This document shows positions 4,375 to 32,581 of a stretch of 64,000 nucleotides of DNA, piece by piece. The position numbers were made by a program, and so were the translations under genes. Within the stretch, counting starts at the first letter, position 1, and every line of letters starts with the position of its first letter. Source of the DNA: Spirochaetaceae bacterium. GTDB taxonomy: Bacteria > Spirochaetota > Spirochaetia > DSM-27196 > SKKC01. The notes beneath the pieces are model-generated. The model did not search any database. It had not been told where the DNA came from and saw nothing but the letters and a program-made list of their open reading frames with translations. The stretch is from the NCBI GenBank assembly GCA_007694005.1, contig RECN01000071.1:1-64000 (forward strand), given 5' to 3'.

Positions 4375-6078
<1,704 letters not shown>

Positions 6079-6081
6079 TTA

Positions 6082-6108
6082 ACAGGCAACGTAAATTACG
6101 TTACCTGT
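6082..6108. promoter_or_regulatory. 27-bp near-perfect inverted repeat overlapping the putative groL promoter
   Basis: ACAGGcAACGTAAaTTACGTTaCCTGT: only one symmetric pair (c/a) is mismatched. On the minus strand it overlaps -35 TTGCCT, followed by 17 bp and -10 TACCAT. Confidence 0.7.
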
Positions 6109-6167
6109 CGTTGTGTAAAATACACGGAAACGCGTCGAGAATCAACACGAATTTGCAAAGGTGATGA

Positions 6168-7280
6168 TCAAAGTAATCCGGACGATTCAGCGGGCAGATG
6201 CACGGTAAAGGTCGTCCCTGTACCGGGAACGGTTTCGACGTCTATTCTGCCCGCATTCCGCTCGACGTATTCGGCCACAAGCACAAGCCCGAGCCCGGTA
6301 CCACTCTCTCCTCCCGTTCCTTTACGCTGAACCTTGCGATCGGACCGAAACAGGTAGGGCAGATCTTCTTCAGACACCCAGACGCCGGTATCCGCGACCG
6401 CGACACACACGCTGTCGCCTTCACGGCGGGAGGCTACCGAAACCGCACCTCCCGGCGGAGTGAACTTAACCGCGTTGTTGATCAGATTGCGAAACGCGCT
6501 TGAGATCATGTCCACGTCCGCGCGGGCGACGTGTGAGGGATGGACATCGCAGGTGAGCGTCACGCCTTTCTGCTCGGCAGCGGAGCTGAACAGATCGACG
6601 GCGGTTTCCACCACGCTGTGCAGATGCACAGGGGCGGGACGCGGCATCAGGAGCTGCTGCTGCAGCATGGCCCACTTCAGGAGGTTTTCGAGAAGGGCGA
6701 CGCCGCGGCCGGCGCTGCGATGCAACTCTGAGGCGATTTTCCTGAGTGTTTCGATATCGAGCTCCTCGGCACTTTCCTCGAGCAGACGCGAAGCCCCGAG
6801 AAAGCCGGTGAACGGCCCTCGTAGATCGTGGGCGATTATGGAAAAGAACCGGTCTTTCGTCGCATTCAGCTCTGCAAGCATTTCGCGCTGCTTCTTGATC
6901 GTGAGATGCGCTTCGACCCGGGCGAGAACCTCATCCTGCTGGAAAGGTTTGGTAATGTAGTCAACGCCTCCGGCTCTGAACCCCTCGATCTTGTCCTCGG
7001 TGGACGCAAGGGCGCTGATGAAAATCACCGGTACATCACGGGTTACCGGGTTCTCCTTGAGCCGACGGCAGATCTCAAAGCCGCTTATGTCAGGGAGCAT
7101 TACGTCGAGAAGGATCAGATCCGGGGTCTCATCTTCGACCAGAGGGATGACGGCCTTACCGTCCTGAGCGACAAGGACACGATAGCCCTTCCGATCGAGG
7201 TGATTGTAGAGCACGCCAAGGTTCGCCGAGTTATCGTCGACAATGAGCAAGCGCGCCGCTGCGCGATCTTCACGTTTCAT
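6168..7280 (-). CDS. response regulator receiver-histidine kinase hybrid (REC-HisKA-HATPase)
   Basis: REC domain (LIVDDNSANLGVLYNHL...DLILLDVMLPDISGFE), H-box FFSIIAHDLRGPFTGFLG, HATPase motifs GTGLGLVLVAEYVERN. Confidence 0.9.
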   Translation of the reverse strand: MKREDRAAARLLIVDDNSANLGVLYNHLDRKGYRVLVAQDGKAVIPLVEDETPDLILLDVMLPDISGFEICRRLKENPVTRDVPVIFISALASTEDKIEGFRAGGVDYITKPFQQDEVLARVEAHLTIKKQREMLAELNATKDRFFSIIAHDLRGPFTGFLGASRLLEESAEELDIETLRKIASELHRSAGRGVALLENLLKWAMLQQQLLMPRPAPVHLHSVVETAVDLFSSAAEQKGVTLTCDVHPSHVARADVDMISSAFRNLINNAVKFTPPGGAVSVASRREGDSVCVAVADTGVWVSEEDLPYLFRSDRKVQRKGTGGESGTGLGLVLVAEYVERNAGRIDVETVPGTGTTFTVHLPAESSGLL

Positions 7281-10200
7281 CTGATGCCTCCGGCAGCCGC
7301 TCTTCGATTGCCTTCAGTTTGAATCCGCGGGCGAGGCTCGTTAACGTTTCACAATACGGTGCGTACATCGGTTTCGACCCGGCAAGCGCTTCGCATGCAC
7401 CGATCACCTCGCGGATATCGCCGCGCCGAAGCGCGTGGGCAATGTCGGAGACCTCGTCCGGGCGTGGTACAGGGTCAGGTCCGTTTCGTTCAGCTTCACT
7501 CGAATCGTGGTCGGTGTTGTAGACGAATACGATGCTGAGGGTTTCGGCGATCAGACGCAGAACGCGATCCTTGTCGAGAGGGTGATCGAGGAAACCGGAG
7601 AAACCCACGCGAAGACACTCGTCGCGCAGCTGTGAGGACACGCTGCCGGAGCTGGCGATGGCCGGAATGTCTTTGAGCAGTTCGTTGTCCCGCAGCGAGA
7701 GGTAGGCTTCAAACCCGTTACCCCCGGGCATGACAACATCAATAATAATGAGATCAGGACGCCGGTCCTTCGCACACTCCACGAGCTCACCACCGTCTAT
7801 CGCCTCGTCAACCGTGAAACCGAGAGGAACCAGAAGATCGGTCAACAGCCTCCGGTTCGCCTCGACATCGTCCACGACCAGAATGTGCTTCGCATTGCCA
7901 ATGTATCCGGTGACATGAGCAAACGAAAGCCCGTGGTCGTCTCCATTGTTTCGACCGGACTGTGCATCCGCCTGCTCTTCGATCGCTCCCGGAAACGCCC
8001 GAAGGGGAAAGGCAACGTAAAACGTCGTTCCGCTGCCAACCGTACTCCGGACCGACACCGTTCCGCCGAGAAAGTCGACGAGGCGTTTCACGATGGCAAG
8101 CCCCAGTCCCGTGCCTTCGCCGTCAATCCGCGGTTTGTCTCCCTGTATGAACGGTGAGAAAATCTCTTCGAGTTCGTGCTCGGGTATACCAACACCGGTA
8201 TCGGTCACCGAGAACACAATGCTCTGCCCGTCAGCCGATTTCTGTGCAGCAACTCTGACCATGCCAGCCGGGGTAAACTTGACCGCGTTGGAGACAAGAT
8301 TCGTGAGAATCTGCTGCAGTTTCTTTTCATCAATAACAATGAGTTGTGGTAGCGCAGGGTCAATACCCTGCTCGAGGCGCAGACCTTTCTGCTGCGCCTG
8401 CACACGCACCATAGCCGTGAGCTCTGAGAGCAGACTGTCGACGTCGACCGCCGTATCGTGACGTTCGATGCGCTCAGCCTCAATGCGGCTGAGATCGAGC
8501 ACATCATTGAGCAGACCAAGCAGTCGATTACCGCTTGTCTCTATGACACCGACCGCCTCCCGGTATTCAGGGGCAAGGTCTTCATCTCTCACCAGTAGCT
8601 GTGCGTATCCGAGTATCCCGTTGAGCGGCGTTCGCAGATCATGGCTCATGTTCGCAAGAAACCGGCTTTTTGCCTGGTTCGCAGAGTCGGCATTAAGTCG
8701 TGCCGTGACCAGATCGGCGTTGATGGATCGCAACTCGTTGAAACTTGCAGCTATGTGTTCTGAAGCGTCGCGGAAATTATTAATGAGCACCTGCACTTCA
8801 CGTATTCCCGTCCTCGGCCAGGAGACCGGACGCTCCGATTCAAGGATGCGAGCCGGCAGACCGCTTGTTGTCCTGCTGAGCAGCCCGAGAGATTTCACCA
8901 TTGCAGTACCGAACACGCGCGAGAGCACGATCGTACCGAAGATCAGTGCAAACACCAGCGTAAGCGACTGTATGGAAAGCTCATTCAGAGACACCTGGTA
9001 TGGCGCAAGCGGCGCCGAAAGGACGAGCGTCCAGCCGGCGGCCTCTGAAAGGTCCCGCACCAGCAGGTAGCTGGAACTGTGCCACCGCTGCACCGCGGCA
9101 ACATCACGTGCGTAGTCGGGCACGTGCACGAACATAGACGCGTCCATCTCCGTCATGGTCCCGTAGCGCATGTAGCCGAGCGGATCATTCGCTTCGGTAT
9201 CGCGGTTCGTACTCACGAGCACCAGGTCACCCGGTCCTATGATGGTAGCATCCAGCCCCCAGGGTTCGACAATTCCCTCAAGCTGCCGCCTGATATTATC
9301 AAGACGCAGGGTTCCGAAGACGGTGCCCTCCCCCGGCGCATCGCCTCCCCAGGGAACCGCGACGGAGAGGCTTGGGACATCAAGGTGCTCGTAGACAAGA
9401 CTGGAAATGCCCAGACCCGTGTCGTCGAAGGAGGCTGTTACGGCGTCCAGATCGTGCGCCGAAAGCACGCGGCTGTTTGAATCGTCCACACCAGGATACA
9501 TGGCCTGAATCCGGTGACTGCTGTCGGCGATCCGCAAGCCGCTCACATCACTGAGCGCATCGCTTCCGAAACGAACAACCTGTGCGAGCGATTCCGGGCT
9601 GTGAGGGTGCTCGCTCCACGACCGGGCAACAGCCCCCAGAGCACGCGATATCCCTTCGATGCGATGATCGACCATGAGTTCAACCGCGTTTCCTATCGAC
9701 ACGAGGCGATCCTGAACCTCCTGCTCGGTGACCTGTAATGCCAGACGTGACTGAAGGGCAAATACCAGAAGAGCGGGTACGACGACAAAGCCCGTGATCG
9801 TGTACAGGATCGCGTCCCTGATCGAAACCGAGGCACGCTGCCTGCCCTGCATCACGACGTCGGAGGCTGACGGAAGCACTGCGATCACGACACCGGCGAT
9901 CAGCGCGTTCACCACGCCGTTGACGCCCTGCTTCAGCACGACGACCCACATGTTGGCCGGCGAAAGACGGAGAAGAAGCCCGTAGACGAGCAGGTTTGCG
10001 AGGAATCCGAGCGTAAGCCAGTACAGGGTGTCGATCATGAGCACGTTGTCCCCGCGCCTGCGGAGCAGGAAGCCGACGAAAGCCGCCTCGAGCGTAAAAA
10101 CGAGGACGGCGTAGGGCTGGTTCCAGAGAGCATAGGTGGGGAGGGCGATGACTGCCGCTGCGATCGTGCCTGGAAGAAAACCAAACAGATACACGATGAT

Positions 10201-23787: not shown

Positions 23788-24613
23788 TGACGGCCGCGCG
23801 GTGCTGCTTCGTGCCGACCACCTGACACTACGCTATCCGGCTCGAAAGGCGCGTCTCGGGCGGCCATCCCGGCCACCAGTCGATGCGGTGCGCGACGTGT
23901 CGCTCGCCGTCGACGCAGGTGAGATTCTCGGCGTCGTCGGCGAATCAGGCAGCGGAAAGTCGAGCCTGCTGCGATGCCTCATGCTCATGGAACGACCGAC
24001 GGCGGGCTCGATACGCTACCACGGACGGGAGCTGACCGAACTCACGCCCGTAGAGCTGTCCGAAACCCGTCAGGGCATGCAGATCGTCTTCCAGAACCCG
24101 TCGGCCTCGCTGAACCCGGATATGAGCGTGTTGCAGATTGTCGCCGAACCACTGCAGCAGCTCCGGGTCGGGTCTCCGCGTGAGCGCAGGGGGCTTGCGC
24201 TTGAAGCACTCGAGAAGGTCGGTATTTCCGCGTCGGAGGCACACGACCGGCCCGGGCATTTCTCCGGAGGCCAGAAACAGCGCATCGCCATCGCCAGGGC
24301 CATTGTCGTAAAGCCGGATATTCTGTTCGCCGACGAGGCGGTCAGCGCCCTCGATGTCACCGTTGCCGCCCGCGTTCTGGACCTGCTGCGCGCACTGCGT
24401 GACAGCATGGGGTTTTCCATGATCTTTGTCGCACACGACCTTGCGGTGGTCGCCGCGCTCTGCGACCGTATCGCGGTCATGAAGGACGGCCGCCTTCAGG
24501 AAACAGGACAGACTGCTGATATCCTTCACCGGCCGCGGGCGGAATACACCAGAAGACTGCTTGAAGCGGCGCGGCACACGGAGTTGCCACGGCACACGGA
24601 GTTGCGCTTTTGA
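23777..24613 (+). CDS. ABC transporter ATP-binding protein, OppF/DppF type
   Basis: GVVGESGSGKSSLLRCLMLMERPTAGSI; IVFQNPSASLNPDMSV; FSGGQKQRIAIARAIVVKPDILFADEAVSALDVT; start at MQTDDGRAV overlaps the previous gene. Confidence 0.9.
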   Translation: MQTDDGRAVLLRADHLTLRYPARKARLGRPSRPPVDAVRDVSLAVDAGEILGVVGESGSGKSSLLRCLMLMERPTAGSIRYHGRELTELTPVELSETRQGMQIVFQNPSASLNPDMSVLQIVAEPLQQLRVGSPRERRGLALEALEKVGISASEAHDRPGHFSGGQKQRIAIARAIVVKPDILFADEAVSALDVTVAARVLDLLRALRDSMGFSMIFVAHDLAVVAALCDRIAVMKDGRLQETGQTADILHRPRAEYTRRLLEAARHTELPRHTELRF

Positions 24614-26640
24614 ACACAGCTCATCCGTCCGCCGCAACCCTGAGGCGTGCACGCGCCGGCCTTCACTTTCTGCTTTCAGGCGGTTCACGCCTTCTGATAT
24701 TTCTCTCGATTACCTTTCTCGTCGGCGAAATTCTGCTTCGCACAGAACCCCTTCGCTACCACGTTCTCTACGAGTATCTGCTGTATCTCGGCCGCCTTCT
24801 CCGTTTCGACCTCGGCACGAACCGGGATGGCGTGCAGATCCTGTTCTACCTGCAGCCGGCCCTGCGAAATTCACTGAGGCTCTTTCTCGTACCTATGGTC
24901 GTGTCGCTGGGGCTCGCCTACTACATAGGCAGCAGAACGTACATCCGACGATCGGGAGTGATCGCGGGCGTTGTTCGTCGCATCGCCAACTTCGCCTCGG
25001 CTGTGCCCGTGTACTGGCTGGCACTGCTCTTTTTCGTCGTAGCCGTTGAGACCGGCTGGTTTCCGGTCGGGAACGTGAGCTCCCCCGGTGCCGACCGCCT
25101 GCCACGCGTTGCGCGGTCGCTGAACTATCTGCATCACCTCGCGCTCCCCTGGGCGAGTCTGATGCTCTACCCGGTCATGGTGCTCTCGGAGCGCATACAG
25201 ACGCGACTGCGCTCGGTGAGCTCACAGAACTTCGTCAAGGCACTCGAGAGCCGTGGATACCAGCGGTCGACCATCGTGCACAGACATCTCTACCCGGTGG
25301 TCCTGTCGGATCTTCTGCACGGTTTCGCCGCGCTCGTTCCCATGCTGATCACCTACCTGGTTCTGGTGGAGCGGGTCTTTAACTATCCGGGGCTGGGACT
25401 CATGACCATAGGCCAGTTTCAGGGCATCGCACCGGTACCCGATACAAGCGTCTCGCAGGCGGGCCTGACCTATCTCGGTATCCTCGCCATACTCATACAG
25501 ACGCTTGCGCGCAGCCTCGCAGGCTTGATACTACCGGAACCGACCAATGATTCCGGCGACGCCCGAACGGCCGTCTGGCGGCGAATCGCCCTCCCTGCTA
25601 TCGGGGTGAGCGCGCTGCTCCTGCCGGCTCTTGCAGCAGCGGGCCCATGGCAGACCATGCAGGCGCAGGATGCAGGCATGATGCCCGTACGCCTGCTGCT
25701 GCTTCTGCTGTCCGGTACCGCCTTTGTTTTTGCAGTGCGGCGGGTCAGGGCAGCATCTCCCGCGGCGCGCCTGTTTCGAACAGCCTCGCAGCAGCGGCTC
25801 CGTCTCTGTATACCCGTGCCTGATCCCGCCTGGGTCGGACGCGGAATCCGAACCCATGGCCGGCAGATTCTTACCATCGCGCTGCTTGCCGCAGCCTTCG
25901 CGTTGCTTCTCGGAGCCGGCTTCGTGATAGAGGCGCCTCCACGAAGCTTCGCGAACCCGATCATGGCCGAACGCGCCACGGGGATACCCTGGCCGGTCGC
26001 CTATACACAGCGGGCCATCGTGGCATCGCGATTCATGCTGATACCACTCGCGGCTGCCGTGGCTGCCGTCGTCGCAGGAACCCTTGCGGGGGGCATCGCC
26101 GGGTACCACGGGCTTCAGAGCGCCGATCGGATTGCCGACATCATCGAAACCTTTCCCTCGGTTACCGTCCTTGTCATGATGAGCGCCGCTACCGACCGCT
26201 CGATCATGGGTCTGCTTGTCACCCTGGCGCTCATCGGTGGTGCGCGCATGTACCGGAGAATCCGCTTCGAAGTCGAGCAGATCAGGGGACGCGATTACAT
26301 ACGGTACAGTACGCTGCTGGGAAGCCCGGCCGGGACGGTCATGTTCAGACATATACTCCGGAACACCGCCCCGCTGATCGCACAGGCGGGTGTACTCGTT
26401 GCCGTGGACCTGTTGATCCTCGAAGCAAACATGAGCTTCCTCGGTAACTTCTACAGTCTCCCATTCGAGTGGGAGTCGTTCATTCCCGTCCGCGGCTGGG
26501 GCCTTATGCTCAACGAGACGCGCTCGCTCATGATTCGTGGTGACATAGCCCCCGCCCTGATACCGGCGGCGTTCCTTTCGGCCGCCGTCATCATCGGTCG
26601 GGCACTCGCGGGCGCTGTACGGGGGAGAACGCAGTCATGA
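24610..26640 (+). CDS. fused peptide-type ABC transporter permease (OppB-like plus OppC-like halves)
   Basis: 676 aa. N-half has ALRNSLRLFLVPMVVSLGLAYYIG and KALESRGYQRSTIVHRHLYPVVLSDLL; C-half has ADIIETFPSVTVLVMM and RGRDYIRYSTLLGSPAGTVMFRHILRNTAPLIAQAGVLVAVDLLILEANMSFLG. TTG start overlapping the upstream stop. Confidence 0.85.
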   Translation: MNTAHPSAATLRRARAGLHFLLSGGSRLLIFLSITFLVGEILLRTEPLRYHVLYEYLLYLGRLLRFDLGTNRDGVQILFYLQPALRNSLRLFLVPMVVSLGLAYYIGSRTYIRRSGVIAGVVRRIANFASAVPVYWLALLFFVVAVETGWFPVGNVSSPGADRLPRVARSLNYLHHLALPWASLMLYPVMVLSERIQTRLRSVSSQNFVKALESRGYQRSTIVHRHLYPVVLSDLLHGFAALVPMLITYLVLVERVFNYPGLGLMTIGQFQGIAPVPDTSVSQAGLTYLGILAILIQTLARSLAGLILPEPTNDSGDARTAVWRRIALPAIGVSALLLPALAAAGPWQTMQAQDAGMMPVRLLLLLLSGTAFVFAVRRVRAASPAARLFRTASQQRLRLCIPVPDPAWVGRGIRTHGRQILTIALLAAAFALLLGAGFVIEAPPRSFANPIMAERATGIPWPVAYTQRAIVASRFMLIPLAAAVAAVVAGTLAGGIAGYHGLQSADRIADIIETFPSVTVLVMMSAATDRSIMGLLVTLALIGGARMYRRIRFEVEQIRGRDYIRYSTLLGSPAGTVMFRHILRNTAPLIAQAGVLVAVDLLILEANMSFLGNFYSLPFEWESFIPVRGWGLMLNETRSLMIRGDIAPALIPAAFLSAAVIIGRALAGAVRGRTQS

Positions 26641-28379
26641 AGCTTAGAGGTGCAGCCCGTCGCATACTCCTGCTTGCCTTCGTTCTGGTTGCGAGCACGC
26701 GGCTGACAGCAGAGGTGTTTGACTACGGTTCGACTGCAGGCAGATGGACGCAGAACCCCGCGACCGGTGCTGTCGTGCGTCTGGGGACGTACCGGGACGG
26801 AGACCGCACCGTGCTCAGACGTGTGGTGTTCGAGGATGAAACCCTGCACAGCGTTGACCTCGCAGACCTGTACATCGGCAACGCACGAATCCGTCGGGCG
26901 ATAGAAACCGGTGACGTCGTGCTCCTGTACGTCACCGACGGAGGAAGCCGGCTCCCGAACGGTCTGTACACGGTTCCCCGGACGGAACTCCTGGAGAATG
27001 GCGGACGGTCGGTCATCGACGCGTCGTGGCTCAGGGATCATCTGCGTGCCGATGCCGGACGCGTGGCCTCACACAGAGACTTTGACGCGCTTCCGGGCGA
27101 CCGGACCGGTTCGGAAGACCGGTACGTCGTTGCTCATCGCACACCCGAAGGATCGCAGCTCGTGGTGTACGGCGCCGACGGAGGCGCGCGAAGCGTCGAA
27201 GGAGTAGACGCGAGCCGCCTCGCGGGTGATCTGCGCGTCGCCCGCGACGAGCGCACCGGTCGCCTCCTCGTATCGTTCAGAAGCCGCGGGCAGACCGAGG
27301 AGGCAGGGCTTCACGTCGGACTTCTGCGACCAGGAAACGGCAGCTACGTGTACGAGGAACTTGCCCGGCTCCCCGGTCGTTTCTTTTCGGTGTTCGGCTC
27401 TACCGGTGAGGGTCCGCGCGGTCCGCTTGGCTTCGGCAGCACCTACCGGGATGCAGGGCACGACCTGATCGTGCTCGACGACGGCAGTATCGCCCTTGCC
27501 TACCAGTACATCACGCAGATTCAGAGCCCCCTGACACGGCCGAGCGCCGGTCTGGTCGTGTATCACCTGCCCACTGATTCAGGCGAAGCGACCCGCATGA
27601 CAGTCACTGAGCCGCAGACGAGTCGCTTTGTGTTTTCGCCGCGTCTGTATCAGGCAGGTGAACAAAGGCTGTCGGTGTACTGGATCGCCGAACAGCATCC
27701 TGAGTTTATCAGCGATGTATTCAGGGCCGACGTCGATCTCGCGACGGGACACACAGGTCGTCCGGAGAACATCAGTGCGAACGCCCGCATCGTCAGCGAC
27801 CCTGCTGCGGCAGGCCCCGGTGGAGCCTTTGTGCTGTATCTGCAGCACGAACCCCGGGCCGGAACCGCCCGGGTCATCGTCCGGCAGCCGGCCGTCCGTG
27901 GGCTGAGAGAGTGGCTGCGCGTTCCGGGAGACGGTGTTCCGGCAGAGGATCTTGCTGCCCTGCTGCTCACCGTGCCACTCGCCGCCCTTTACGGTATTGC
28001 ATTGATGTTCACACGCTCGCTTCCGGCGCTCCTGCTCGTATACGCCCTGACCGGTGCGCTGTATCGCTTCGGCCCCGAGCTCATTCGGCACGCGGGGACC
28101 CGCCTGATTCCCGTTCTGAGTTGCCTGTACCTTGCCGCTCACGGAGTTCCTCCGTTCAGTTTCGCAGCGGTCACGCACGGCGCTTCCCTGTTCGCACTTG
28201 CAGCGGCTGCAGCGCTGTACAGCGGCTATCTCGTACAGGCCCGTACATTCCCACCCCGGGGATCGACGACTAAGGACATGATGCTGCCGATCGCCGTCGC
28301 CGCGCTTGTGTTCAATGCGGTTCTCGCCTACCCGACCGTCGCCGAAATGCTCGCGGGTCTTAACAGCTTCGTGTACTAG
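26637..28379 (+). CDS. secreted/membrane-anchored protein of unknown function (signal peptide, large exported domain, C-terminal TM cluster)
   Basis: N-terminal signal-like MKLRGAARRILLLAFVLVASTRLTAE; ~400 aa exported region; C-terminal hydrophobic segments; overlaps the permease stop by 4 bp. Confidence 0.7.
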   Translation: MKLRGAARRILLLAFVLVASTRLTAEVFDYGSTAGRWTQNPATGAVVRLGTYRDGDRTVLRRVVFEDETLHSVDLADLYIGNARIRRAIETGDVVLLYVTDGGSRLPNGLYTVPRTELLENGGRSVIDASWLRDHLRADAGRVASHRDFDALPGDRTGSEDRYVVAHRTPEGSQLVVYGADGGARSVEGVDASRLAGDLRVARDERTGRLLVSFRSRGQTEEAGLHVGLLRPGNGSYVYEELARLPGRFFSVFGSTGEGPRGPLGFGSTYRDAGHDLIVLDDGSIALAYQYITQIQSPLTRPSAGLVVYHLPTDSGEATRMTVTEPQTSRFVFSPRLYQAGEQRLSVYWIAEQHPEFISDVFRADVDLATGHTGRPENISANARIVSDPAAAGPGGAFVLYLQHEPRAGTARVIVRQPAVRGLREWLRVPGDGVPAEDLAALLLTVPLAALYGIALMFTRSLPALLLVYALTGALYRFGPELIRHAGTRLIPVLSCLYLAAHGVPPFSFAAVTHGASLFALAAAAALYSGYLVQARTFPPRGSTTKDMMLPIAVAALVFNAVLAYPTVAEMLAGLNSFVY

Positions 28380-28780: not shown

Positions 28781-28873
28781 CGGCTGTTCTCCCCTGATGA
28801 TACGGTAGTACGAAGCGTCACCCCGTGCAAGATCGCAGATCATCACCTATACTGAAAAAACAGACGGAGGCAC

Positions 28874-30202
28874 ATGAACACCAAGACGTTTTTCTCAGCT
28901 GACAGGGTGGTATTCCTCAGATCGCAGAACAAGCGAGATGCGATCGAGACTCTGGTGCGCACTGCCTGCGAGTCGGCTGACATACGGAATCCGAGGCTGG
29001 TCGCTGATCTGGTGCTCGCGCGCGAGGACGAAATCTCAACAAAGGTGTCCGAAGGGGTCGCGATACCTCACGCCAAGTTGCCCGACTCCGACCGGACAGT
29101 CGGCTGCATCGGAATTTCCGCTGAGGGCGTTCCCTACGATGGCGGATCGGTTCACGTCATTGTGCTGATGCTCTGGGCGCACACGACAAACCTTCTGGTC
29201 CTCAGCGATCTCGGTCGTCTGCTGCGACGATCCGACCTCTACGAAGCGCTAAAGCGGTCCCGCACCGCGGAGCAGGTTCTGAAAGTCCTGTCGAATCCAC
29301 CGACACGCGTAGAAAAGGAACCCGAGCGAAACCGGACCGCCTCGTCGACCTTCCTGCACGCGCTCAGACTCGCCGAGTCCATAGGCCTTGAGTCCGTCCT
29401 GCTTTTTCCCGACGCGATGGGGTCGGTTCATTTCTTCAAGTCTGAACCCGGCCTGCAGGATGCCCGGACATCGTTTCGCGGCCGGGTTCTGCTTCTGACC
29501 AACGACCCTGAGGCATACACGTCCGATGGTATTGTTGACGAGATCATAGACATGCCCGTTAAATCGGTCAGTGAGCACAACCTCACCACCACATCGCTGC
29601 TTTTTCTGCTCAGTCGGGGCATTCTTGAAAAGACCGAGCGCGTCCTTACGGTATTCGGCGAACCTTCAAGCGGAGCACTGGATACCATACGGCTCACGAA
29701 CCTGAAACGCGAGTTCGGCCCCCTGTTCAGGCTTCCCAGCGGCGGCGTCGGCGGAGACATTGACGATCTGGTGTTTGCGCGGGTCCTGCAACTGGCGACG
29801 GAGCTCGCCCAGGAAGGCCGGGAAGGGAAACCCGCGGGTACGATTTTCGTCCTTGGTGACTACGAGACGGTAAAGGGCTACTGTCACCAGCTGCTCGTCA
29901 ATCCCTTTCGCGGTCTTGAGGCATCAGACCGGAACGTTCTCGACCCGAGCCTTGAAGAAACGGTGAAGGAGTTCTCGCGCATCGACGGGGCGTTTTTAAT
30001 CAGCGGAGACGGTGTGATTCAGAGCGCGGGCACCTATCTGCGTGCCGATGTGGAAGTTCAGGACCTGCCGCAGGGGCTCGGTGCCCGGCACACTGCGGCA
30101 GCCGCCATTACTGCTGTCAGCGCATCCGTTTCCATAGCGATAAGCGAATCGACAAAGCGGATCTCCGTCTTTCGCCAGGGACGGCGCGTCATGAGCGCCT
30201 GA
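28874..30202 (+). CDS. PTS EIIA (fructose-type) domain fused to a diadenylate cyclase (DisA_N/DacZ-like) protein
   Basis: N-term EIIA: REDEISTKVSEGVAIPHAKLPDSDRTVGCIGISAEGVPYDG (phospho-acceptor His). C-term DAC-like: GTIFVLGDYETV...NPFRGLEASDRNVLDPSLEETVKEFSRIDGAFLISGDGVIQSAGTYL...LPQGLGARHTAAAAITAVSASVSIAISESTKRISVFRQG (DGA and RH motifs). Confidence 0.82.
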   Translation: MNTKTFFSADRVVFLRSQNKRDAIETLVRTACESADIRNPRLVADLVLAREDEISTKVSEGVAIPHAKLPDSDRTVGCIGISAEGVPYDGGSVHVIVLMLWAHTTNLLVLSDLGRLLRRSDLYEALKRSRTAEQVLKVLSNPPTRVEKEPERNRTASSTFLHALRLAESIGLESVLLFPDAMGSVHFFKSEPGLQDARTSFRGRVLLLTNDPEAYTSDGIVDEIIDMPVKSVSEHNLTTTSLLFLLSRGILEKTERVLTVFGEPSSGALDTIRLTNLKREFGPLFRLPSGGVGGDIDDLVFARVLQLATELAQEGREGKPAGTIFVLGDYETVKGYCHQLLVNPFRGLEASDRNVLDPSLEETVKEFSRIDGAFLISGDGVIQSAGTYLRADVEVQDLPQGLGARHTAAAAITAVSASVSIAISESTKRISVFRQGRRVMSA

Positions 30203-30211
30203 TCCGGTCGC

Positions 30212-32482
30212 CTATGGCCCCGCGGCCGGAGGAGCCGCGTAGCGCGCAATAGCCTCGGCGCGCGCCGAAGCGCGCGCGCGTCGCAGGTCGTCGGCGCTGC
30301 CCCCCGGTGAAGATACACTGTCCGATTCCGGCAGGGGCTGCGTTCCGTCGTTCACCCGCATGACCGCGCCGGGATTACGGTCGAGAAAACCTTTGACATC
30401 TTCGAAGGCTATGGCAAAAACCGACACCTTCGTCTCACTCGTTACCCTGAGTGTACTCGGCTGTTGGCGGTGTAGATCGCCCATGCTCCCGGCAAGCATA
30501 CCACGCTGCAGTGTGTTCGTTTTTCCGCCCTCGTCTTCTACCCGGAGACGCCCGTCGCGCACCAGAAAGACTTCCTGCACAGCGGCCCCATGCTCAATGA
30601 GTACCTCAGAGGCTTCGTACTCTCGCGGCTGCAGCACCGACTCGAGCCACATCCGTTGATAGTCGGTCAGGTGAACGAAGGGCAGACCCTCAGCCAGCAG
30701 ATTCCAGGTCTCTTCGCTGCGATTGCGGATGAGGCGCCTGAGCACGGTCTCGAACTCGGTGCCGGCGATAAAATTCAGGAATCGCGACCGTTCTATGGAC
30801 AGAACCTCGACTTCCGATTCGGCGACAACGTCGGCTGTACGGTCGCTGTCGGTCATGAGAGCAACCTCGCCAAAGTAGTCATACGCACCAAGCGCTTTAC
30901 CGCGCACGAGGTTGTCGACAAGGACCGCCGCGTTACCGTTCATGATGATGTAGAAGTAGTTCCCCCGGCTTCCCTTGCGGATGATATGCTCCCCGGCGCG
31001 AAAGGTCTGCCGTTCGACGATGCCGAAGAACTGTTGAACTTTGGGCACACTCAGGTCTCGAGCGAAATCGAGCTGCTTGAGGACATCGAGAACCCGGTAG
31101 GCTTCCTCGTATTGCGGCGGAGCCGTGTCAAGATAGCGGGTGTTCTCTATGCCGAACGAAGCGCGGCTCAACAGCGAATCAGTCGGAAAGTCCTTTTCTG
31201 CGATGTGGAAGCAGGTGATCCTGCGCTGTACGTCTTCGGGGAGGCTCGCCAGATAGGTAACAGGAGTGTGCAGCGGCGCTATCCCCGCTTCGTGGTAGAT
31301 GACGTCTGCATCCCAGGGAAAGCTTTTCAGCTGTTCGTATCGTCGCTGATCGATCGTCCCGCCAGCACGCATCGATTCGTGGATATCGGGATCATTCTGG
31401 TGGTCACTCGAGTATACGAAGCTCTTGTCCTGAAATGTAAGGCGAAAGGCCATGGTCGGAATCGAATGGACCGAGTAATAGACCGTAAACTCTCCCCCAT
31501 GCACGTAGAAGCTCTGGTCTATATACACGGGGTGAAAATCGAAGAGCGACTTCAGGAAATCCGGGTGTTCGCCCGAGAAGGACGCGTACTTTCGCAGAAA
31601 GCCCTGCATGATCGTCGGCGTCGTATATACGGTCACACGGCCTTCCTGAAGAATCTTCTGAAAGGTTCCCGCATCGTGGTCCGCATGGCAGTGAGTAAGA
31701 ATGATGGAGTCTATGAACTTGGGGTTTACGTTCGACTGAAGCAGCCACTCGGTGCAGTTGACCGGAGGATCGACCATGATGCCGCTGTGATTAAGCCAGA
31801 TAATGAAACCGGAGGTGTTATCATGTGGGTCAAAACCATGACTCGGCCCAAGGCAGGTCACCCCGAACCGCGGGGGGACAAAGGGAGTCGGCAACCGCTC
31901 ACCAATATCATACTGTGGTGTGTAGGAGACCGCCGCCGGTACCGGGACCGCTTCCTGCCCGTCCCAACTGAACTGGAAGCTGTCGGCTGTACGGCGAATG
32001 TGCACCCCGTCGATTTCGACCACATCATCCTTGAAGCAGACAATATCAAACAGGTCTTCGAGGGCGAGCGACCCCCGGAAAAACGAGAGCTCGCGGCTGA
32101 TATCGGGAACCCAGGCATTCAGGTCATCCGAAAAGAGGTCCTGTCGCAGATCAAGCTTCTCGGGTCCGAACACCGACTCCCGGATCGCAACCGAAAGCCG
32201 CGCACCCTGTTCTTCGGTGCAGCATATCGTAACCTTCTGTTTGCGTATGAAAAAGTTAAAGTAGATCGGAAACTCCATGTCTCCGACGTTGATGCCTTTC
32301 TGCCAGTGAAAAAGCTCGTGCGGGAGCACGAAGAATCTCGGGACCGACTCCGGCGTTACCAGCGTGTCCTTGATCGTCTCGGGCGGAGCTCCCACCTGTA
32401 TGCCCCCGATCGGCGTCTGGACGATACGACCGCCACGCGGCAGCTCTACGACGGTCCCGACCTGTACTTCTGATTCCTTCAT
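30212..32482 (-). CDS. metallo-beta-lactamase-fold hydrolase with two C-terminal cyclic-nucleotide-binding (CAP_ED) domains
   Basis: IILTHCHADHDAGTFQ (HxHxDH), YSSDHQND, YHEAG; then FRAGEHIIRKGSRGNYFYIIMNGNAAVLVDN...GAYDYFGEVALMTDSDRTADVVAESEVEVLSI and a second module YEASEVLIEHGAAVQEVFLVRDGRLRVEDE. Confidence 0.85.
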   Translation of the reverse strand: MKESEVQVGTVVELPRGGRIVQTPIGGIQVGAPPETIKDTLVTPESVPRFFVLPHELFHWQKGINVGDMEFPIYFNFFIRKQKVTICCTEEQGARLSVAIRESVFGPEKLDLRQDLFSDDLNAWVPDISRELSFFRGSLALEDLFDIVCFKDDVVEIDGVHIRRTADSFQFSWDGQEAVPVPAAVSYTPQYDIGERLPTPFVPPRFGVTCLGPSHGFDPHDNTSGFIIWLNHSGIMVDPPVNCTEWLLQSNVNPKFIDSIILTHCHADHDAGTFQKILQEGRVTVYTTPTIMQGFLRKYASFSGEHPDFLKSLFDFHPVYIDQSFYVHGGEFTVYYSVHSIPTMAFRLTFQDKSFVYSSDHQNDPDIHESMRAGGTIDQRRYEQLKSFPWDADVIYHEAGIAPLHTPVTYLASLPEDVQRRITCFHIAEKDFPTDSLLSRASFGIENTRYLDTAPPQYEEAYRVLDVLKQLDFARDLSVPKVQQFFGIVERQTFRAGEHIIRKGSRGNYFYIIMNGNAAVLVDNLVRGKALGAYDYFGEVALMTDSDRTADVVAESEVEVLSIERSRFLNFIAGTEFETVLRRLIRNRSEETWNLLAEGLPFVHLTDYQRMWLESVLQPREYEASEVLIEHGAAVQEVFLVRDGRLRVEDEGGKTNTLQRGMLAGSMGDLHRQQPSTLRVTSETKVSVFAIAFEDVKGFLDRNPGAVMRVNDGTQPLPESDSVSSPGGSADDLRRARASARAEAIARYAAPPAAGP

Positions 32483-32581
32483 TGCTCCCCCGCACCACAC
32501 CGTATGGTTTTTGCAGTGTACTCGCGCTCCGGGTACGCTGCAATCTATACTATGTACTACACACTCGACGTGATTTCACGG

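Follow-up and report, generated by a model that had tools for sequence, protein, structure and literature searches.

The window, by which we mean the whole 64-kb stretch of Spirochaetaceae DNA analysed here, carries a gene whose product joins a phosphotransferase-system (PTS) EIIA domain to a diadenylate cyclase (DAC) domain (Table 1). The gene stands alone, with a divergent cytidine deaminase gene upstream and a convergent gene for a cNMP-binding/metallo-beta-lactamase protein downstream. Scans for promoters and terminators around it returned matches at chance level only, and no RNA family was detected within the 64-kb window.

Table 1. Coordinates of the EIIA-DacZ gene and of the features within it, in window positions.
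Feature	Position	Strand	Basis
EIIA-DacZ fusion gene (EIIA / PK_C-like / DAC)	28874..30202	+	ORF, 442 aa, ATG start
Shine-Dalgarno-like GGAGG 5' of the ATG	28866..28870	+	direct reading
PTS_EIIA_2 domain, aa 6-141, Fru/Mtl/Ntr fold	28889..29296	+	Pfam, profile-to-PDB search, Foldseek
GVAIPHAKL motif	29054-29080	+	direct reading
His66, predicted phosphate-acceptor histidine (AIPH)	29069..29071	+	invariant in 35/35 EIIA-bearing members
Asn106 at the second active-site His position	29189..29191	+	family alignment
Pyruvate-kinase C-terminal-like (PK_C / DacZ_P) domain, ~aa 152-285	29327..29728	+	Foldseek, profile
DAC (DisA_N) diadenylate cyclase domain, DacZ type, aa 312-437	29807..30184	+	Pfam, genome search, NCBIfam
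GREGKPAGTIFVLGD motif, presumed DacZ-type counterpart of the CdaA GALI region	29816..29860	+	presumed correspondence
DGA motif (Asp371)	29984..29992	+	invariant in 38/38
GLGARHT motif (Arg405, His406)	30074..30094	+	both residues invariant in 38/38
SES motif, counterpart of CdaA SEE	30143..30151	+	Ser424 invariant, Glu425 in 37/38

Pfam recognised two domains in the protein, PTS_EIIA_2 (PF00359; E 1.5e-18, 67.5 bits) and DAC (PF02457; E 4.8e-19, 68.5 bits), each scoring more than twice its curated cut-off of 27 bits, and genome-wide searches with either family recovered this locus. The co-occurrence of EIIA with a DisA_N-like domain had been proposed in an earlier, sequence-only reading of this DNA; it is borne out by these scores, and the GVAIPHAKL, DGA and GARHT motifs named there are all present. 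Judged by sequence profiles and modelled folds together, the ORF is EIIA-PK_C-DAC. Because the DacZ/CdaZ cyclases likewise have PK_C followed by DAC, we call the protein EIIA-DacZ, in agreement with the DacZ-like module of the earlier reading. We rejected chance similarity on account of the Pfam scores, the same three-part protein in relatives, and purifying selection. A model of the full-length protein had a pTM of 0.48, at which the relative placement of the domains is unreliable. We propose that EIIA-DacZ is probably a soluble enzyme of the DacZ/CdaZ class, the second diadenylate cyclase of its genome, gated by phosphorylation of its N-terminal PtsN-like EIIA, and we weigh this against the alternatives as the evidence on each is given.

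The surroundings of the gene say little about its role. In an ORF comparison, the order of neighbours was kept in the family member G408 and, within its short contig, in G413, and was conserved only near the genus or family level. Neighbours in other relatives include SbcC/SbcD-like genes, an alpha-amylase with a BCCT transporter, fumarase, lipoate ligase and MarR; among the neighbours scanned, none recurs across the order and none ties EIIA-DacZ to PTS or K+ genes. Given divergent and convergent flanking genes and no order-wide recurrence, we discarded an operon logic. A DisA-like connection to DNA repair was also discarded, since sbcD/sbcC-like genes adjoin the fusion in G371, apparently lie near it in G130, and were seen beside it in no other relative. 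In G371 (L083, 2833-8446) they form an sbcD-sbcC-EIIA-DacZ run in which EIIA-DacZ overlaps the stop of the sbcC-like gene, and a gene for a CBS-domain protein converges on EIIA-DacZ. In the window, the downstream gene (30212-32500, minus strand) combines a metallo-beta-lactamase fold, with HxHxDH present, and two cNMP-binding domains in one protein, which could be a nucleotide-responsive hydrolase; its pairing with EIIA-DacZ is apparently kept in L098 and L099. Farther upstream, a 580-aa ORF (26637-28379, plus strand) without a Pfam match at E 1e-5 directly follows a gene (24610-26640) whose ABC permease product has two permease domains.

For the EIIA domain, solved EIIANtr (PtsN) structures ranked first in both the sequence-profile search and Foldseek (1a6j, 3urr and 2a0j), but the NCBIfam fructose model (fruA, 41.6 bits) scored slightly above PtsN (TIGR01419, 33.6 bits against an equivalog cut-off of 138.7 bits), both being below cut-off. 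The subtype is therefore ambiguous, and the domain may act like PtsN without being classed as PtsN. When 67 EIIA domains were placed in a tree, whose deep branches are weakly supported, the fusion EIIAs adjoined stand-alone spirochaete EIIAs of ~160 aa, apart from the six other EIIAs of the genome. A constraint holding all fusion EIIAs together was not rejected (p-AU 0.317), and the fusion may have had one origin or two. Among the six other EIIAs, two form fusions with Na+/H+ exchangers (L104, 5172-7283, minus strand; L106, 3290-5515, plus strand) and one is encoded next to an exchanger (L104, 8663-9496), beginning at the end of the separate exchanger gene (7413-8660).

We aligned the active sites of 38 family sequences, down to ~27% identity, 35 of which bear EIIA. 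All 35 have A63, P65 and E51 in addition to His66, and R50 is retained in 33. The second active-site position, where a His is frequent in the domain though not universal, holds His in 27, Asn in 5 and Gln in 3, and Asn106 is common to the protein in the window and its near kin. Phosphate donors are encoded in the genome: three HPr, one of which adjoins HprK near a sigma-54 gene (RpoN), and four EI-type N-domains, one of them in a GAF-EI of 758 aa (PtsP-like). It is unlikely, in our view, that the EIIA is no longer phosphorylated and has become a mere docking or dimerisation module on an ordinary DacZ. Such a loss would fit the Asn at the second His position in this lineage and the faster evolution of EIIA and PK_C relative to DAC (pN against L050 of 0.35, 0.33 and 0.14, respectively). 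It would also fit two relatives of far greater length than the others (L009, 1495-3324, minus strand, 610 aa; L053, 1498-3036, minus strand, 513 aa), which imply that EIIA can sit on a long tether; in L009, low-complexity stretches between EIIA and PK_C and within the PK_C region suggest that the tether is flexible. Against it stand the AxPH His, still invariant at ~27% identity together with E51 and nearly so R50, and the presence of HPr and EI to supply the phosphate.

If the EIIA is phosphorylated, it might instead be a working part of a sugar PTS that serves an EIIB in trans as phosphate donor, DacZ being a passenger reporting sugar flux. The small advantage of fruA over PtsN favours such a role, as do a GAT-type EIIC and EI/HPr-containing clusters in the genome. 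We nevertheless consider it quite unlikely, as no EIIB or EIIC gene was recognised beside EIIA-DacZ, either here or among the scanned neighbours in relatives. In a PF02378 search, moreover, EIIC of this type was weak in the genome of the window and absent in G330 and G350, both of which have the fusion, EI and HPr, and the fusion EIIAs cluster with stand-alone EIIAs. The same absence of adjacent EIIB/EIIC genes and the PtsN-like clustering weaken the link to sugar uptake that had been drawn for the fusion by the sequence-only reading, although its identification of the fusion itself stood. Taken with the exchanger-linked EIIAs of the genome, they make a link from PEP or energy status to ion homeostasis seem at least as likely as one to sugar uptake.

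The stretch between EIIA and DAC was previously described only as a middle region. In the protein of the window itself, aa 150-297 had no Pfam match; in the middle region of relatives Pfam matches reached E 8.8e-14 for DacZ_P and E 1.2e-4 for PK_C, and a family profile gave weak matches to residues 346-456 of E. coli-type pyruvate kinase (E 0.0065 and 0.015). We modelled aa 152-314 from 33 relatives (pLDDT 84, pTM 0.78), and pyruvate kinases made up all of the best 50 Foldseek matches to solved structures listed for this model. By its modelled fold and profile matches, then, this part of the protein is a PK_C domain, and it directly precedes DAC, as in the DacZ/CdaZ class.

Among the NCBIfam DAC models, DacZ (NF041371) matched best (E 6.8e-34 over aa 297-440) and was also the top model for all 15 family members compared, its score here of 117.4 bits lying below an equivalog cut-off (430 bits) that belongs to a haloarchaeal model. 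Although CdaA (DacA) and DisA share the DAC catalytic domain with EIIA-DacZ, membership in either was rejected: DisA scored 25.7 bits against a cut-off of 201, and our protein ends with DAC, without the linker and HhH that follow it in DisA; CdaA scored 26.5 bits against 188.8, and the transmembrane N-terminus (CdaA_N) found no match. The DAC motifs of the family have counterparts in the ATP-site list given for Listeria CdaA (PMC7288161), and G315-R-E-G318, G322, G328, N343-P-F345, D371-G-A373, G401, G403, R405-H406 and S424 are invariant among the 38 sequences. One apparent oddity, pointed out in the earlier reading, is RHT in place of RHR. The Thr is indeed there, but the residue after RH varies across the family (A in 22, T in 11, Q in 2, R in 2, Y in 1), and a haloarchaeal protein annotated DacZ has His there (RHH). 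We therefore see in RHT no sign of altered chemistry and rejected an altered active site; in the Listeria CdaA motif list, the residue after RH is not among the contacts (PMC7288161). EIIA-DacZ is a predicted cyclase with intact catalytic motifs.

The same genome has a separate, ordinary CdaA gene followed by YbbR, and EIIA-DacZ would thus be an extra cyclase. A second DAC gene was present in 13 of the 15 genomes carrying a DacZ-type DAC. In G008 (L015/L088; 94% complete), the fusion was the sole DAC detected, with no CdaA. As for other c-di-AMP components, no PgpH-type phosphodiesterase was found in the genome of the window, which has five DHH-domain matches, and the c-di-AMP riboswitch RF00379 was found in none of 15 genomes. 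That CdaA already provides c-di-AMP, together with Thr rather than Arg after RH, might suggest that the DAC domain is inactive and senses ATP or c-di-AMP to control something else through EIIA. We regard this as very unlikely, given that the core ATP-site motifs are retained in 38/38 sequences, that the post-RH residue differs among family members, with His in the haloarchaeal protein, and that G008 would be left with no other detected cyclase.

The fusion is not peculiar to this genome. In the order to which the window belongs, the family profile matched 34 of 46 genomes, which cover 14 of 16 genera, some of the matches being fragments at contig ends. Among 393 genomes sampled from the phylum, 12 carried the fusion and three (G003, G107 and G042) a DacZ without EIIA; the fusion also extends to four further families of the class and to one that lies outside the class. 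At L090, a class III adenylate/guanylate cyclase gene (4891-5961) is followed, 3 bases on, by an EIIA-less DacZ (5965-6843). A scan of genome contigs returned only a near-identical relative, a Spirochaetaceae MAG (isolate CSSed162cmB_249) that is the nearest public record and whose prefix we take to denote soda-lake sediment, and on plasmids haloarchaeal dacZ alone matched. Against a sister genome with 98% protein identity, dN/dS was 0.015, 0.031 and 0.032 across the three domains. An assembly or frameshift artefact, which the 204 contigs of this assembly might bring to mind, can be set aside, as the single-contig genomes G130, G371 and G350 (carrier contigs of 3.3-4.7 Mb) encode the same single-frame protein, as does most of the order, and the protein is under strong purifying selection throughout.

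With an invariant acceptor His, donors in the genome and intact catalytic motifs, c-di-AMP synthesis under PTS phosphorylation control is the best-supported interpretation of this protein. We infer the catalytic activity, phosphorylation and gating of EIIA-DacZ, the PK_C ligand and the physiological output, and arrange them as follows. EI, or the GAF-type EI, would move phosphate from PEP to HPr, which would in turn phosphorylate His66 of the EIIA domain. The phosphorylation state of EIIA would then alter the pairing of DAC domains, without which two ATP cannot be condensed into c-di-AMP, and a metabolite bound by PK_C may provide a further input. PEP or energy status could in this way set c-di-AMP output and, most likely, K+ or osmotic control. 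It is unphosphorylated PtsN that acts on K+ transport proteins, and by analogy we lean slightly towards unphosphorylated EIIA-DacZ being the active state. In proteobacteria PtsN acts on K+ transport, which it controls in E. coli, and in most bacteria K+ is reported by c-di-AMP (PMC7900238, PMC13104625). Ion or osmotic control is the more likely output of EIIA-DacZ than sugar uptake alone.

Each of the three modules is known, and two are known together. The PK_C + DAC layout occurs in archaeal DacY/CdaZ and DacZ and in some bacterial homologues (PMC6741144); DacZ of Haloferax volcanii and CdaZ/DacY of Methanocaldococcus jannaschii likewise have a PK_C-like domain and then DAC with DGA and GxGxRH, but no EIIA is described for them (PMC6741144), whereas the protein in the window adds an N-terminal EIIA of ~145 aa. 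EIIANtr/PtsN resembles that addition in its EIIA_2 fold and in the phosphate-acceptor His of AIPH; it is a stand-alone protein, whereas the EIIA here is covalently tied to its presumed output enzyme. Closest in principle are the EIIA-Na+/H+ exchanger fusions of the same genome, which also place EIIA_2 on a non-PTS effector; there the effector is a transporter, and in EIIA-DacZ it is a second-messenger synthase. In line with the sequence-only reading, which knew of no characterised example, we found none: an EIIA-DAC protein is unreported in the mostly non-subscription literature that we searched, and an earlier mention is possible. The three-part protein is apparently a new combination that we have not found described.

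The signals that control c-di-AMP synthases are largely open, and the known cases act via partner proteins or DNA structure. In EIIA-DacZ, a PEP-EI-HPr phosphorelay input would be covalently attached to the synthase, so that signal control becomes testable with one purified protein. More tentatively, the family may represent a synthase switched directly by PTS phosphorylation, in which a PtsN-type EIIA and c-di-AMP are joined and a glycolytic metabolite enters via PK_C, old and widespread in several spirochaete families. PtsN and c-di-AMP have been discussed as regulators of potassium homeostasis in different bacteria (PMC7900238); if our reading of EIIA-DacZ is true, the two kinds of regulation unite in one molecule. 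With a PTS phosphate acceptor and a predicted archaeal-type cyclase in a single polypeptide, PEP or energy status could directly set the osmotic and potassium signal in these spirochaetes.
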